Source of the DNA: Alphaproteobacteria bacterium
GTDB taxonomy: Bacteria; Pseudomonadota; Alphaproteobacteria; DSM-16000; Inquilinaceae
DNA length: 64,000 nt
Reading direction: 5' to 3'
Assembly: GCA_028284045.1 (NCBI GenBank)
Contig: JANQSN010000013.1
Span: forward strand, 1-64,000
Below are positions 122-7,086 of the stretch, piece by piece (positions within the stretch are counted from its first letter, which is position 1; each line of letters opens with the position of its first letter). The position numbers and the translations under genes were made by a program. The notes beneath the pieces were generated by a model, which saw only the letters and a program-made list of their open reading frames with translations, did no database searches and was not told the origin of the DNA.

Positions 122-1120
122 TTAGAGAGCGCTGACGGGCTCGAACAGGGCCGGATCGAGGCGGAACTGCCAGCCGTCCACCCCCTCGGCCAGGTCCGCG
201 GCCGTGGCGGCGGCCGCCGCCGTCGCCCCGGGCGCGGTGCCCGCCGCGATGGCGACCCAGAGTGCGGCGGCCCCTTCGCCTACCTCGGCACCGGCCTCGA
301 CGATGGTGATCGACAGCCCGTCCTCGGTGACGAAACCCAGGCGGAAGGCGGTCTCGCCGTCGGGCACGGTGCCGGACCGAACGTCGAGCCAGGCGAGGCT
401 TTGCGGCAGGGCCGCCAGCGCTGCCGCGCCGTCGCCGTCGATCGCGGCACCGTCGGCCTCGAACGCGGCGTCCCCGCGGTCGCGGTCCAGCCGGACGGGC
501 AGCCGCCCCGGCCGCTCCACGACGATGCGGCGCACCCGGTCCGGTGCCAGGTCGATCGGCGTGCGGTCGAACCAGTCCAGCGGATCGCGCGGCACCGCCG
601 GGATACCGGCAGCCCGCCATGCCCGCGCCTCGAACACCCGGCGGACATAGACCGACGGCTCGACCGCTGCCGCCGGCCGGCCGCCGATCAGCAGCCGGCC
701 GAGCGGGGCGGCGTCCGCTGCCTCGATGTCGACCCGCAAGGCCCGGCTGTCGGGATCGGTGATGTCGGCGACACCGAGCCGCGGGTAGCGCGCCGGCCGG
801 GCGGTCATCGGTGCCACCAGGCGCAACCCCGCCAGCCCGTCCAACGCCGCCGCGACGCGCCGCGGGTCGGCCGGAAAACCGTCCCGCTCCCGCCAGGTCC
901 AGCCGCCCTCGGCGGCGCGGTCGAGGGTCAGGGCGAAACCGGCGCCGGCGATCACGATACGTGTCGCCGCGTCCGGCGCGGCCGCCAAGGCCGGCAGCGC
1001 CGGGGTGCCGACCTGCGCCCGCTCCGGCGCATCGCGCGGCGCATGCACCGCCAGCGCCGCCAAGACCGCCAGCGCGGTCACCGCCGCCAAGGCCAGCAGG
1101 CGGCGCCCGGGCCCGCTCAT
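122..1120 (-). CDS. DUF4340 domain-containing protein
   Basis: 332 residues. There is one N-terminal membrane anchor or signal segment (about residues 7-27), then a periplasm-facing body with repeated beta motifs of the type 'W.W.ERDGFPAD..RV...L..L..L' typical of DUF4340. The start ATG overlaps the stop of the upstream GldG-like gene in an ATGA arrangement, so the two are translationally coupled. DUF4340 genes usually sit last in GldF/GldG-type ABC operons, as here, and the molecular role is unknown. It is the last gene of a four-gene minus-strand operon and ends about 40 bases from an IS630 transposase tail. Confidence 0.85.
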   Translation of the reverse strand: MSGPGRRLLALAAVTALAVLAALAVHAPRDAPERAQVGTPALPALAAAPDAATRIVIAGAGFALTLDRAAEGGWTWRERDGFPADPRRVAAALDGLAGLRLVAPMTARPARYPRLGVADITDPDSRALRVDIEAADAAPLGRLLIGGRPAAAVEPSVYVRRVFEARAWRAAGIPAVPRDPLDWFDRTPIDLAPDRVRRIVVERPGRLPVRLDRDRGDAAFEADGAAIDGDGAAALAALPQSLAWLDVRSGTVPDGETAFRLGFVTEDGLSITIVEAGAEVGEGAAALWVAIAAGTAPGATAAAAATAADLAEGVDGWQFRLDPALFEPVSAL

Positions 1121-2988
1121 GGCGCGCCGGCCCGCCAGCGGCGCAGCACCGCGCCGCCGGCCAGCGCCAGCAGCAGCACCGCCGCCGGCAGCCCCACGAC
1201 ATGACCGAAGCGCACCCAGAAGGCCAGGTCCTCCCCTTCCCGGCGCAGCGCATGCTGCACGCCACGCAGCTCCCGGCGGATGTCGACCAGCCGGCGCCGC
1301 AAATCGGCGAGCGCCGCCGCTTCCGCCGAAGCCGGGTCGGCGGAAGCGGCGCTATCGGCTGCAAGCTGGGCGGCGAGCGCCTCTTCCGCCGTCGCCAGCT
1401 CCGTCAGCAAGCGGGCCTCCGCCGCCCGGGTCTCCGCGTCGATCCGCTGGCTCAGCGCCGCCAAACGCTCAAGCGGCCGCGGGGTTTCCGCCCGACCGCG
1501 CAGGGGCGCCAGGTTGACCGCACCGCGCAGCGCTTCCACGGCATTGACCAGGAAGGCATCGTTGTTGGCGAAGGCGGTGGCGGTCGGCTGACCGTCGACC
1601 TCTGCCACCGCCGCCCACAGCGTGTCGGCCAGCAGGTCGGTATCGGCCACGACAACAATGTCGAGGTCGGTTCGGCTCGCCGCCAGATGCGCCGCGGCCC
1701 CGGCAGCCCCGTCGGGGGGACCGTCGGGAAAGGCACTGACCGCCGGCCCGGTCAGCCGGGCGGCCAGCGTCACCGGCGCCTCGGCGGCCCCAAACCGGTC
1801 GGGCAGGGTGCGCACATCGGTCTCCGCCCGGATCGCGTCCACCGGCACCGTGCCGCCTTCCGCCGTGGTGCGTATCAGCGGCGTCAGGCGCGGGGCCGCC
1901 GGGCCGTCCACCGGGACCGCCGTCAGCGACCCGGCGGTTGCCAGGTTGACGCGGTCGAGCGCGCTGGTGATGGCGTCCGCCTCGGCCATCCCATCGCGCC
2001 CCAGCGACAGCCAGACGATGTTGTCGGCGCGGGCGCCCTGGGGGCCGTCCTGGACCAGCGGCACCGCCCGGCTGGGGTCGGCCGCCACGGCGCCCGGCGC
2101 CAGCGCCACACCCCAGGCGGCGGCGAACGGGCCGAGATCGCTGTTGTTGGGCGCGAAGCGCTCGGCGGCCGGGCGGTGGCGGCGCTCCACCTCCGAATAG
2201 GGATCGACGAAGACGATCGCCCGGCCGCCGTCCAGGAGGAACTGGTCGACGGCGTAGAGGGTGGCCGGCGCCAGGCCGCGCGGCTGCACCAGCAGGAGAA
2301 CGTCGATCGCCGGATCGATGGTCCCGGTATCGGGAGCGATGGGCGCGATGTCGAAGAATTCCGCCAGCCGCTGGACGATCAGCCAGGGGCCGCCGTCTGG
2401 GCCGAACAATTCCAGACGGCCCAGCACGCCGACGCGCGGCCGCTCCGGCACCGCCAGCGCGGCGACCAGCGCCGTCAGGTCGTATTCCAGGGCGCCCGCC
2501 TCCTGCGGGCGGAACAGCGGCACGACCGCCCGGTCGTCAACGCTGTTGTGGGCCACCAGCCCGAGATAGGCGCTGTCGCCGCCGGCCCGCGGTACCGCCA
2601 CCAGCCCCGCCGCCAAGGCGCGGTCCTCCGCCGGGCTGAACGGCGCAGGATCGACGACGCTGAGGCGGATCATCCCACCGGCGGCCACGACATACTCGCC
2701 GATCAGCTCCCCCACCCGGTCGACGAAGGGGCCGAGTGCCGGCTGATCGCGCACCAGATCGGCGGAGCGGTAGAGTGTCAGGTCGATCGGCTCGTCCAGC
2801 GTCGCCAGCACGGCGCGGGTCGCCGGGGCCAGGGTGTAGCGCTTCTCTTCCGTCAGATCGATGCGCCAGCCGGCGGGCAGCGCCAGGATCAGCAGATTGG
2901 CGGCGACGAACAGCACGGTCGCCAGCCCGGCCGCCGGCCAAACCGACGCCGCCAGCCGCGCCAGCGTGCGGCCCCCTCGGCCCCTCAT
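1117..2988 (-). CDS. GldG-like ABC transporter auxiliary (substrate-binding-like) protein
   Basis: 623 residues. An N-terminal membrane helix (about 15-37) is followed by the 'DLTEEKRYTLAPATRAVL' segment characteristic of GldG-family proteins, a long periplasmic ABC_transp_aux-type domain, and a C-terminal helix (about 590-615) with a basic end. In Flavobacterium GldF/GldG work with GldA in gliding; in proteobacteria the same set is an uncharacterised ABC exporter-like system. ATG 2988 was chosen because it begins the GldG motif region. An in-frame GTG at 2997 would overlap the permease stop. It sits between the permease and the DUF4340 gene, and both junctions are within a few bases. Confidence 0.85.
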   Translation of the reverse strand: MRGRGGRTLARLAASVWPAAGLATVLFVAANLLILALPAGWRIDLTEEKRYTLAPATRAVLATLDEPIDLTLYRSADLVRDQPALGPFVDRVGELIGEYVVAAGGMIRLSVVDPAPFSPAEDRALAAGLVAVPRAGGDSAYLGLVAHNSVDDRAVVPLFRPQEAGALEYDLTALVAALAVPERPRVGVLGRLELFGPDGGPWLIVQRLAEFFDIAPIAPDTGTIDPAIDVLLLVQPRGLAPATLYAVDQFLLDGGRAIVFVDPYSEVERRHRPAAERFAPNNSDLGPFAAAWGVALAPGAVAADPSRAVPLVQDGPQGARADNIVWLSLGRDGMAEADAITSALDRVNLATAGSLTAVPVDGPAAPRLTPLIRTTAEGGTVPVDAIRAETDVRTLPDRFGAAEAPVTLAARLTGPAVSAFPDGPPDGAAGAAAHLAASRTDLDIVVVADTDLLADTLWAAVAEVDGQPTATAFANNDAFLVNAVEALRGAVNLAPLRGRAETPRPLERLAALSQRIDAETRAAEARLLTELATAEEALAAQLAADSAASADPASAEAAALADLRRRLVDIRRELRGVQHALRREGEDLAFWVRFGHVVGLPAAVLLLALAGGAVLRRWRAGAP

Positions 2989-2993
2989 CGCCG

Positions 2994-3833
2994 TCACCGG
3001 TGGGCCGTCCGCGCGACCAGGAGGCCGGCAAGCGACAGGAAATAGACGATGACGCTGATCAGGAAGAGCCCGTCGCGCGGGTCGACGACGCCGCGGACCA
3101 TGGCGGCGAACCGCGCCTCCAGCGAGAACCAGCCGAGCAGGGTGACCAGCCGGTCCGGCACCCAGGGCGCGATCAGACCGACCACCGGGGTCGACCCCGG
3201 TGCCGTCAGGGCCAGCGCCACGGCGAAGGCGGCGATGAAGGCGATGACCTGGCTGCGCGTCGCCGCGCTCGCCGCCGTGCCGATCGCCAGATAGGCGCCG
3301 GCCAGAAGCAGGCTGGCGAGATAGCCGGCGGCGATCACCCCGTGGTCGGGGTCGCCCAGCCAGGCGACGGTCAGCCACAGCGGCACGGTCAGCGCCAGCG
3401 CCACGGCCGCCATCAGCCAGGCCGCCAGGAACTTGCCGATAACCGCGCGGGCCGGGCCGATCGGCAGGGTCAGCAGCAGCTCGATGGTGCCGACGCGCCG
3501 GTCCTCCGCCCACAGCCGCATGGCGAAGGCCGGCGCCAGCCAGAGATAGAGCCAGGGATGGAAGCGGAAGAACGGCTCCAGATCGGCGCGCCCACGCTCG
3601 AAGAAGCGGCCAAGCTCGAAGGTGGCGACGGCGCTGGCCAGCAGGAACACCACGATGAAGACGGCAGCGAGCGGCGTGGCCAGGTAGCTCGCCAGTTCCC
3701 GCCCCACCACCGCGCCGATCGGCCGCGCCCAGGCGCGCAACGCCACCGCGGCCCGGCCGATCCGCGCGCCCGGGCCCGCCGCGGCAACCGGCCGGCGGCT
3801 GTAGCGCGTCTTGCGGCGCGCCGGGGCGCTCAT
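2994..3833 (-). CDS. ABC transporter permease (GldF-like, ABC-2 type)
   Basis: 279 residues with about six hydrophobic segments. The first follows a basic cytoplasmic N-terminus (RR/KTR-rich). Between segments one and two is 'RLWAEDRRVGTIELLLTLP', the cytoplasmic coupling motif (E.+.GT.E.LL..P) found in ABC-2 permeases that act with GldG. It probably forms the membrane channel partner of the ATPase encoded just upstream; the ATPase stop and this ATG share four bases. The substrate is unknown. The call to the GldF type rests on the coupling motif and on the adjacent GldG-like and DUF4340 genes. Confidence 0.87.
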   Translation of the reverse strand: MSAPARRKTRYSRRPVAAAGPGARIGRAAVALRAWARPIGAVVGRELASYLATPLAAVFIVVFLLASAVATFELGRFFERGRADLEPFFRFHPWLYLWLAPAFAMRLWAEDRRVGTIELLLTLPIGPARAVIGKFLAAWLMAAVALALTVPLWLTVAWLGDPDHGVIAAGYLASLLLAGAYLAIGTAASAATRSQVIAFIAAFAVALALTAPGSTPVVGLIAPWVPDRLVTLLGWFSLEARFAAMVRGVVDPRDGLFLISVIVYFLSLAGLLVARTAHR

Positions 3834-4633
3834 GCGCCCGACCGATGGCGCCGGCCGGGCGCCGGCCCACCGGCCCCGGTCAGCGCCAGGAAGGCGGCCT
3901 CAAGCGAGCCGCCGCCGACCCGCGCGGCCAGCACCTCCGGCCGGTCGTCGGCGACCAGCCGGCCCGCGGCCAGCACGACGACGCGGTCGCACACCGCGGT
4001 GACCTCGTCCAACGCATGGGTCGACACGATGACCGCCTTGTCGTCCGCCAGGCCGCGAATCGTCCGGCGCACGAGCTGCCGCTGGGCGGGGTCCAGGCCG
4101 TCGGTGGGCTCGTCCAGGATCAGGGCCGGCGGGTCGTGCACCAAGGCGGCGGCCAGGGCGACACGCCGCCGGTAGCCCTTCGACAGGGTGTCGATGCGCT
4201 GGCGCCGCACGGCGTCCAGGCCGGTTAGCGCCACCGCGCCGTCAAGCCGGCGCCGCCGGGCCGCCCCGGTCAGGCCATGCGCCGCGGCGACGAAGCGCAA
4301 CAGCCCCTCCGGCGTCATCTCGCCCCAGGCGGGCGCCCCCTCCGGCAGATAGCCGAGCCGGGCCTGCGCCGCCACCGGCCGCTCCACCACATCGATGCCG
4401 GCGATCGCCGCCCGCCCGGCGCTGGGCGGCAGGAAGCCCGCCACCATGCGCATCGCCGTCGTCTTGCCGGCGCCATTGGGCCCGACCAGACCGACCACCT
4501 CGCCGCGGCCGACGGAGAAGCTGACATCGTCGACGGCCAGCCGGTCGCCGAAGCGGCGGGTCAGGCCCGCCAGGCTGATCAGCGGCGGCTCGGCGTCCGG
4601 CGGCGCCGACGCGATGCGCTGGGAACTCGTCAT
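3830..4633 (-). CDS. ABC transporter ATP-binding protein (GldA-like)
   Basis: 267 residues. All nucleotide-binding motifs are visible: Walker A GPNGAGKTT, signature LSKGYRRRVALA, Walker B ALILDEPTDGLDP and the switch His in VSTHALDE. It energises the permease/GldG pair encoded downstream. ATG 4633 was chosen because it lies about 25 codons before the first conserved strand (ISLAGLTRRFG). Longer in-frame starts would run into the divergent cyclase gene beginning at 4764. It is the first gene of the operon, so the promoter should lie in the 130-base divergent gap 4634-4763. I see no clear -10/-35 pair there. Confidence 0.9.
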   Translation of the reverse strand: MTSSQRIASAPPDAEPPLISLAGLTRRFGDRLAVDDVSFSVGRGEVVGLVGPNGAGKTTAMRMVAGFLPPSAGRAAIAGIDVVERPVAAQARLGYLPEGAPAWGEMTPEGLLRFVAAAHGLTGAARRRRLDGAVALTGLDAVRRQRIDTLSKGYRRRVALAAALVHDPPALILDEPTDGLDPAQRQLVRRTIRGLADDKAVIVSTHALDEVTAVCDRVVVLAAGRLVADDRPEVLAARVGGGSLEAAFLALTGAGGPAPGRRHRSGA

Positions 4634-4763: not shown

Positions 4764-6500
4764 ATGATCCACCGCCTCAGGCTGGCCAGCGGCCTCATCC
4801 TCCTGGTCTTCGTCGCCGGCCATCTGATCAACCATGCCGCCGGCATCGTCTCGCTCGACGCGATGAATGCCGGCCTGAAATGGACGATCGCCCCCTGGCG
4901 TACCGTGCCGGGGCTGATCCTGCTGGCCGGTGCCTTGGCGGTGCATCTGGCGGCGGCGCTGTGGCAGCTCTACCGCCGCCGCAGCCTGAAGATGCCGGCC
5001 TGGGAGGCGGCGCAGATCCTTCTGGGCTTGGCGATCCCCCTTCTGCTGATCGATCACGTCACGGGCACCCGCGTCGCGGCGGATCTCTACGGGGTGCGCA
5101 CGGACTACGACCTGGTGCTGGCCCACTATTGGGTCTTCGAGCCGGGCGAGCGGGTCGGCCAGATGGTCCTGGTCCTGGTCGCCTGGGGCCACGCCATGGC
5201 CGGCCTGCACTACTGGCTTCGGTTGAAGCGCGGCTATGCCGCCGCGGTCCCGTGGCTGTTCGCCGTGGCGGTCGCCCTGCCGGCGCTGGCGATCGCCGGG
5301 TTCGTCGCCGCCGGCGCGGCGCTGGCCCGGGCGGTTGCAGCGGATCCCGGTCTCGCCCAGGTGATCTTGGACCGCGCGCGCGTCGACCAGGCGGGACCGG
5401 CGCTGGCCACGGTGACGGACGCCGCGACGGCGGGCTACCTGGCGCTGATCGGCCTGGTCGTCGTGGCGCGCATCGCCCGCGGCGTCCTCGACGCGCGGCG
5501 CCGGCGGCCCCAGGTGCATCTGCCGGACGGCCGCACGGCGCCGATCGAACCCGGCGCCAGCGTGCTGGAGGCGCTGCGCCGCGCCGGCGTGCCGCACGCC
5601 GCGGTGTGCGGCGGCCGCGGCCGCTGCTCGACCTGCCGCATCCTGGTCCGCCAGGGGGCCGACGCGCTGGCGCCGCCCGCGGCCCGCGAGGCGCGGGTGC
5701 TGGCGCGCATCGGCGCGCCGGCGGCAGTGCGGCTGGCCTGCCAGGTCGCGCCCACCGCCGACCTCGCCATCCAGCCGCTGCTGCCGCCCGGCGTGCACGC
5801 CCGCGCGGGCGCCGCGCGCCTCGACATGCGCCTCGGTGAGGAGCGCGAGGTGGCGGTACTGTTCGCCGACCTGCGCGGCTTCACCCGCCTTGCCGAACGG
5901 CGCCTGCCCTTCGACGTGGTGTTTTTGTTGAACCGCTGGATGGAAGAGATGGGGCGCGCCGTGGAAGGGTCCGGCGGCCGCATCGACAAGTTCATCGGCG
6001 ACGGCCTGATGGCGCTGTTCGGGGTGCAGCGCGGGGCACCGGACGGCTGCCGGCGGGCGCTCGACGCGACCGCCGCGATGGGCCGCGGGCTGGCGCGGCT
6101 GAACGACGCCCTGGCCGGCGAGCTGCCCGAGCCCTTGCGCATGGGCGTGGGCGTGCATGTCGGCCCGGTGGTGGTGGGCGAGATCGGCTATGGCGAGAGC
6201 CGCGGCCTGACCGCCATCGGCGATGCCGTCAACCTGGCGAGCCGGCTGGAGCAGGCGACGAAGGACCACGGCGTGGAAGCGGTCGTTTCGCTGGCGGTGT
6301 TCGAGCAGGCGGGCCGGCCGGCGCCCGCAACGGCCGCGACGCTGCACGAGATCACCGTGCGCGGCCGCCAAGGCGCCCTGGCGATCGCCGCCGTCGCCCG
6401 CGCCGCCGACCTGGCCGACCCCGGCGGCGCCGTCAGTGAAACGCCGGGAACCGCCGTTCCGCCGACAGGCCGAGCAGCCGCGCCGACAACGCCGCCATGA
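4764..6500 (+). CDS. membrane-ferredoxin-class III adenylate cyclase fusion
   Basis: 578 residues in three parts. Residues 1-245 hold five or six membrane helices with many His residues in or near them (H20, H24, H61, H98, H143, H149), resembling a b-type haem anchor of the succinate dehydrogenase cytochrome kind. Residues 250-340 are a 2Fe-2S ferredoxin domain with Cys282, Cys288, Cys291 and Cys326 (C-x5-C-x2-C...C). Residues 362-500 are a class III cyclase with metal ligands D369 and D413, purine-selecting K409, and transition-state N490 and R494. All are intact, so it is probably active and makes cAMP. The layout implies redox control of second-messenger output. Its 3' end overlaps the convergent acyltransferase gene by 68 bases. 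Confidence 0.88.
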   Translation: MIHRLRLASGLILLVFVAGHLINHAAGIVSLDAMNAGLKWTIAPWRTVPGLILLAGALAVHLAAALWQLYRRRSLKMPAWEAAQILLGLAIPLLLIDHVTGTRVAADLYGVRTDYDLVLAHYWVFEPGERVGQMVLVLVAWGHAMAGLHYWLRLKRGYAAAVPWLFAVAVALPALAIAGFVAAGAALARAVAADPGLAQVILDRARVDQAGPALATVTDAATAGYLALIGLVVVARIARGVLDARRRRPQVHLPDGRTAPIEPGASVLEALRRAGVPHAAVCGGRGRCSTCRILVRQGADALAPPAAREARVLARIGAPAAVRLACQVAPTADLAIQPLLPPGVHARAGAARLDMRLGEEREVAVLFADLRGFTRLAERRLPFDVVFLLNRWMEEMGRAVEGSGGRIDKFIGDGLMALFGVQRGAPDGCRRALDATAAMGRGLARLNDALAGELPEPLRMGVGVHVGPVVVGEIGYGESRGLTAIGDAVNLASRLEQATKDHGVEAVVSLAVFEQAGRPAPATAATLHEITVRGRQGALAIAAVARAADLADPGGAVSETPGTAVPPTGRAAAPTTPP

Positions 6501-7086
6501 AGGCGTCGGGCGACCCGGCGCGCGGCACCGGCTCCCCGATCATCATGTCGCAGAAGAAGGGCACCGGCAGCCAGTCGCCCTTGGGCAGGATGCGCCCGAA
6601 CCCGTGCAGGAAGATCGGGATGATCGGCACCTCGGGATAGCGTTCCGCCAGATAGCCGACCCCCTTCTTCATCGCCGACATCCGTTCCGGCTCGCCGCGC
6701 GTGCCTTCGGGGAAGAGGATCAGGATGTCGCCGCGGTCCAGGGCCTGATAGATCGGCGTGAACGGATCCTCGCCGCGGCCGCGCGAGGCGCCGCGCCGGA
6801 TCAGCAGGATGCCCAGCACATTGCGCGAGAACCAGCCGAAGAAGCCCTTGGAGAAGTAATCTTCAGCCGCGACCGGACGGATCCGGCCGAGCCGGCCCAA
6901 CGGGAACAGCGCCATCAGCGCCAGGGTGTCGGCATGGCTGTTGTGATTGGCCACCAGGATCGCCGGCCCTTCCTCCGGCAGCCGCTCGCGGTGGCGCACA
7001 TTGATGCCGAAGGCGAGCAGCAACAGCGGGTAGACGAACCCGATGAAGAAGGCATAGCGCAAGGCAACCAGCGCGATCCGTCTCAT
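6433..7086 (-). CDS. PlsC-like 1-acylglycerol-3-phosphate O-acyltransferase
   Basis: 217 residues with one N-terminal membrane segment (about 5-25). The acyltransferase motifs are NHNSHAD (the H-x4-D catalytic pair), FPEGTRGE (glycerol-phosphate binding) and a later PIIPI strand. The family moves an acyl group to lysophosphatidic acid or a related lipid at the inner membrane. It lies downstream of a CdsA-like gene on the same strand, separated by 182 bases that carry a palindromic repeat. Together they would carry out consecutive steps of phospholipid synthesis (lyso-PA to PA to CDP-diacylglycerol). A specialised lipid is possible if housekeeping plsC and cdsA exist elsewhere. Confidence 0.85.
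   Translation of the reverse strand: MRRIALVALRYAFFIGFVYPLLLLAFGINVRHRERLPEEGPAILVANHNSHADTLALMALFPLGRLGRIRPVAAEDYFSKGFFGWFSRNVLGILLIRRGASRGRGEDPFTPIYQALDRGDILILFPEGTRGEPERMSAMKKGVGYLAERYPEVPIIPIFLHGFGRILPKGDWLPVPFFCDMMIGEPVPRAGSPDAFMAALSARLLGLSAERRFPAFH

Follow-up and report, generated by a model that had tools for sequence, protein, structure and literature searches.

A CyaC-type gene beside an ABC operon

The window, the whole 64,000-nucleotide stretch of alphaproteobacterial DNA analysed here, carries on its forward strand (4764..6500) an open reading frame of 578 amino acids encoding a CyaC-type adenylate cyclase. The translated reading frame, Pfam and the homologue alignment divide it into a six-helix membrane domain (6TM; residues 1-245, 4764..5498), a 2Fe-2S ferredoxin domain (Fer2; residues 254-331, 5523..5756) and a class IIIb adenylate cyclase catalytic domain (residues 360-505, 5841..6278). 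A preliminary description of the locus had placed an adenylate cyclase, a 2Fe-2S ferredoxin and a membrane anchor in one chain, and Pfam together with 110 homologues bears this out, domain order included. The genome encodes 12 cyclase domains, and among the matches listed this protein is the only full-length match to all three domains.

We take 4764 as the likely start of the gene, because a longer in-frame start at 4395 would add sequence that is not coding-like and would overlap an antisense ABC ATPase gene; GC by codon position is 0.80/0.52/0.93 and coding-like over 4764-6419, versus 0.65/0.74/0.85 in the rejected upstream extension. At the other end, the final ~27 residues (6420-6500) are unconserved, and the gene overlaps a convergent acyltransferase gene (6433-7086, reverse strand; Pfam) by about 70 bases. 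Further downstream lie a convergent gene for a CTP_transf_1 protein (Pfam) and, beyond it, trp and accD/folC genes that were annotated by eye.

Upstream, a divergent operon on the reverse strand, assigned by Pfam, begins with a GldA-like ABC ATPase (ABC_tran, 3830..4600, its upstream start uncertain) and continues with a GldF-like ABC-2 permease (ABC2_membrane_2, 2994..3833), a GldG-like ABC auxiliary protein (ABC_transp_aux and DUF7088, 1117..2925, start provisional) and, as its last gene, a DUF4340 protein (122..1120). The adjoining ABC system that had been pointed out in the preliminary description is thus real, and it recurs: a divergent ATPase and permease pair lies directly upstream of 18 of the 104 homologues that have enough upstream sequence. 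These 18 are spread over several separate branches of the family tree, a pattern that could reflect either an old linkage often lost or a functional tie.

Conserved residues and predicted folds of the three domains

Near-full-length homologues were found by profile search in approximately 104 of 385 genomes of the class, as counted from the search listing, and all conservation counts given below refer to an alignment of 110 full-length proteins. The three-domain architecture is not a product of chance, since these 110 homologues retain its His, Cys and catalytic residues.

The membrane domain of the window protein contains H20, H24, H61, H98 and H143 as well as H121 and H149. H61, H98 and H143, together with W141, are kept in 110/110 homologues, and H20 in all 106 alignment rows that cover the position; H24 is nearly invariant, being replaced in two homologues, and H121 and H149 vary freely. 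The 'His-rich' anchor of the preliminary description accordingly reduces, on this alignment, to four invariant His and a nearly invariant fifth, with H121 and H149 falling away. We infer that H20, H61, H98 and H143 are the haem ligands.

Two rows from annotated records were left out of the structure prediction. The modelled membrane domain is of high confidence (pLDDT 96.8, pTM 0.90); the full-length model (mean pLDDT 90.1, pTM 0.68) is confident within domains and less certain in how they are placed relative to one another. The membrane-domain model aligned with Wolinella succinogenes FrdC (1qlb_C) at Z 14.1 and 3.3 A over 194 residues and with the cytochrome b of Chloroflexus succinate dehydrogenase at Z 11.5, the next family being cytochrome b561 at Z 7.0. 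Foldseek by itself placed FrdC at rank 11 with E 3.1, and the clear match came only from a second structural aligner. As modelled, then, the domain clearly has a dihaem FrdC-like fold, with a match far above unrelated folds. The aligned ranges of model and FrdC begin at 1 and 25, respectively, which brings H20 close to FrdC residue 44, a position that we take to be a haem ligand in the Wolinella protein.

Likeness to the dihaem b558 subunits of complex II is weak in sequence. Against sdhC_b558 (TIGR02046) the membrane domain scored 15.3 bits, below the curated cut-off of 96; the same profile touched 26 of 79 family members, with a best E of 9e-4, and searching the sequences of solved structures with a membrane-domain profile turned up no relative. 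True dihaem b558 subunits are almost absent from the phylum as sampled. The window domain thus has the fold and four His in common with Wolinella fumarate reductase FrdC and the SdhC b558 family, but those are respiratory subunits, whereas the window protein is not and is fused to a ferredoxin and a cyclase.

Six-helix cyclase anchors of other clusters have been proposed as ligand receptors (PMC4821796), and the domain might by the same token bind some lipid or another small molecule as its ligand, after the manner of Rv1625c-type and CqsS-type anchors, with its haem ligands as relics. We regard this as very improbable: the four His do not vary even among very divergent members, the predicted fold is like that of dihaem FrdC, haem is reported in Sinorhizobium meliloti CyaC (PMC10463352), and Beltz 2016 sets the cluster of membrane cyclases that has this architecture, cluster 1, apart from the other clusters (PMC4821796).

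The ferredoxin domain is recognized by Pfam Fer2 over residues 254-331 (E 4e-9, above cut-off) and also matches the fdx_isc profile. Its four Cys (C282, C288, C291 and C326), kept in 110/110 homologues, follow the pattern C-x5-C-x2-C-x34-C, the adrenodoxin/Isc-type spacing, in agreement with the fdx_isc match.

Pfam Guanylate_cyc covers residues 360-505 (E 7e-18, above cut-off), and the cyclase-domain model matches cyanobacterial CyaC 1wc0 with a TM of 0.83 of the target. The metal-binding Asp residues D369 and D413 are present, as are the adenine-reading K409 and T483, the Lys/Thr pair that a class IIIb adenylate cyclase should have, and N490 and R494. Sequence and alignment therefore agree with the earlier claim that the four ferredoxin Cys, Cys282 included, and the metal- and base-reading residues of the cyclase are all there. 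D369, D413, T483, R494 and H465 are kept in 110/110 homologues; the loss of K409 in 13/110 and of N490 in 8/110 could be taken to mean that the cyclase is degenerate or inactive and that its output is something other than cAMP. For the window protein, which retains D369, K409, D413, T483, N490 and R494, we give that reading almost no credence.

Separately, nine members (L037, L038, L040, L054, L055, L059, L063, L095 and L099) have Gln, Ala or Ser in place of the adenine-reading Lys, and some of them also have His or Ser in place of Asn490. Judged from these substitutions, members with a changed Lys may have an altered substrate or have lost activity.

Kinship with S. meliloti CyaC and a probable redox-to-cAMP route

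The architecture is that of cluster 1 of the membrane cyclases, in which a six-helix anchor that resembles SdhC/FrdC and has four His is followed by a ferredoxin and then a class IIIb cyclase; two haems were predicted for this cluster (Beltz 2016, PMC4821796). All defining features of that cluster, represented by R. palustris Q132R4, are common to the window protein, compared here by description.

Using the annotated cyaC of S. meliloti strain Ak57 (CP090106.1, L043:5971-7644) as reference, we found 42.8% identity over 549 amino acids, distributed as 36% in the membrane domain, 55% in the ferredoxin and 51% in the cyclase. Domain order, all haem-ligand His, the ferredoxin Cys and the cyclase residues of S. 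meliloti CyaC (SMc01818) match the window protein, which is longer by its ~27 non-conserved C-terminal residues. Because of this identity and the matching of every ligand and catalytic residue, the window protein belongs, by every sequence feature tested, to the S. meliloti CyaC family. FastTree places S. meliloti CyaC with proteins from Shinella and Phyllobacterium, apart from the window protein. The neighbours also differ, with the gldAFG-like ABC operon at the window gene versus the TetR regulator CycR at S. meliloti cyaC, where CyaC is reported to form a complex with CycR and Clr; no CycR (TetR) gene was found among the window neighbours identified by Pfam. In Ak57, insertion sequences separate cyaC from a nearby regulator gene of rutR type (TetR family), a position that agrees with the published SMc01819-SMc01818 neighbourhood (Klein 2023, PMC10463352).

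S. meliloti CyaC binds two b haems, whose oxidation or reduction by ubiquinone changes cyclase activity; oxidation by quinone can activate the enzyme, which is drawn with a [2Fe-2S] cluster (Klein 2023, PMC10463352). The redox-to-cAMP design proposed for the window protein has therefore already been published for its family and is not new. Work by Wissig in 2019 is said to have found a binuclear iron-sulfur cluster in purified S. meliloti CyaC, and His mutants reportedly lose both haem and activity. The view in the preliminary description that no mechanism was known is out of date, because the haem content of the family was predicted in 2016 (PMC4821796) and tested in 2019.

Following this precedent, we consider it highly probable that the window protein, as a relative of S. 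meliloti CyaC, is a homodimeric, quinone-sensing dihaem-b/2Fe-2S class III adenylate cyclase. Two b-type haems in the six-helix domain, held by H20, H61, H98 and H143, would be oxidized and reduced by the ubiquinone pool; the haem redox state would be conveyed through the 2Fe-2S ferredoxin domain to the cyclase, a class III homodimer; oxidation would activate the cyclase, a sign taken from S. meliloti; and the cAMP produced would act on CRP-type regulators to signal an oxidized quinone pool. The residue sets and domain architecture can be read directly from the sequence and the FrdC-like fold from the model, and haem and cluster binding, the quinone response and its sign would carry over by analogy. 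Homology also lends support to the first and last protein steps of this route, and eight matches to the cNMP-binding family in the genome are possible cAMP receptor candidates. The earlier suggestion of a redox input from haem or quinone through the iron-sulfur cluster to the cyclase thus has, as far as the redox input goes, good support from the homology with S. meliloti CyaC; the step in which electrons pass from haem to cluster and set the output, with the cluster on the electron path, we only infer, as we do the genes that would respond in this organism.

As a CyaC relative, the window protein extends a known redox-to-cAMP switch and touches a question for the whole family, namely whether the iron-sulfur cluster is an electron relay or a domain coupler. 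Most class III cyclases signal through coupling helices, and here too the haems might sense the quinone pool and pass the signal on by helix movement, the 2Fe-2S domain being a structural coupler or a separate second sensor (of oxidative damage, say, or of iron status). Two soluble relatives, described below, have Fer2 fused to a cyclase with no haem domain, so Fer2 can act without the membrane part, and redox sensing in S. meliloti CyaC has been assigned to the haems (Klein 2023, PMC10463352). In complex II, however, a dihaem domain of the same kind works beside an iron-sulfur subunit; the invariance of the four Cys fits a retained cluster and does not distinguish relay from coupler. We put the chance of a non-relay role at somewhat under even.

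Sensor modules with other arrangements

A class-wide search recovered four genomes from two alphaproteobacterial families (G075, G758, G168 and G925) that encode the membrane and ferredoxin module without the cyclase. Three copies are complete, at 380-386 amino acids, whereas in G758 the contig ends before the N-terminus is reached; the module retains its four Cys and its haem His, and H24 is replaced by Leu in the three copies in which it can be read. At all four loci the next gene encodes an MscS-type channel and overlaps the sensor stop codon by four bases (ATGA or GTGA), the channel domains being confirmed by Pfam in G075 and G168 and read by eye as close look-alikes in G758 and G925. Two pairs lie on the forward strand (L125:2420-3580, with the downstream gene running to 5505, and L132:2-976, followed by 973-2940) and two on the reverse strand (L126:3613-2471, followed by a gene running to 270, and L131:4674-3517, followed by 3520-1214).

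Their gene order suggests that such a pair may form a redox-gated channel, which, if true, would represent a novel type of redox control. A narrow literature search found nothing on a ferredoxin/MscS pairing, and we know of no description of a cyclase-less sensor coupled to an MscS-type channel. More broadly, we raise as a tentative idea, one we rate as less likely than not, that the dihaem and ferredoxin part is a portable quinone-sensing module wired in at least four genomes to a non-cAMP output, the MscS-coupled and possibly redox-gated channel, and that in the lineage of the window the signal may act on the recurring gldAFG-like operon.

The two soluble relatives differ in their makeup. 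One (L129:1714-3219, forward strand) is a chain with two CDGSH motifs, Fer2, a class III cyclase and Rieske domains, its gene being flanked by apparent guaB and guaA genes; a narrow search of the literature found no account of a CDGSH-Rieske cyclase. The other (L130:2996-4006, forward strand) is a ferredoxin-cyclase fusion with no membrane domain, from a genome that also has the full-length CyaC type. Elsewhere, the sensor and cyclase parts occupy two open reading frames with a 4-base overlap (L127:2320 onward), and in another case (L128:1893-3493) two reading frames are separated by a break within the cyclase; these split genes could represent either gene fission or a frameshift.
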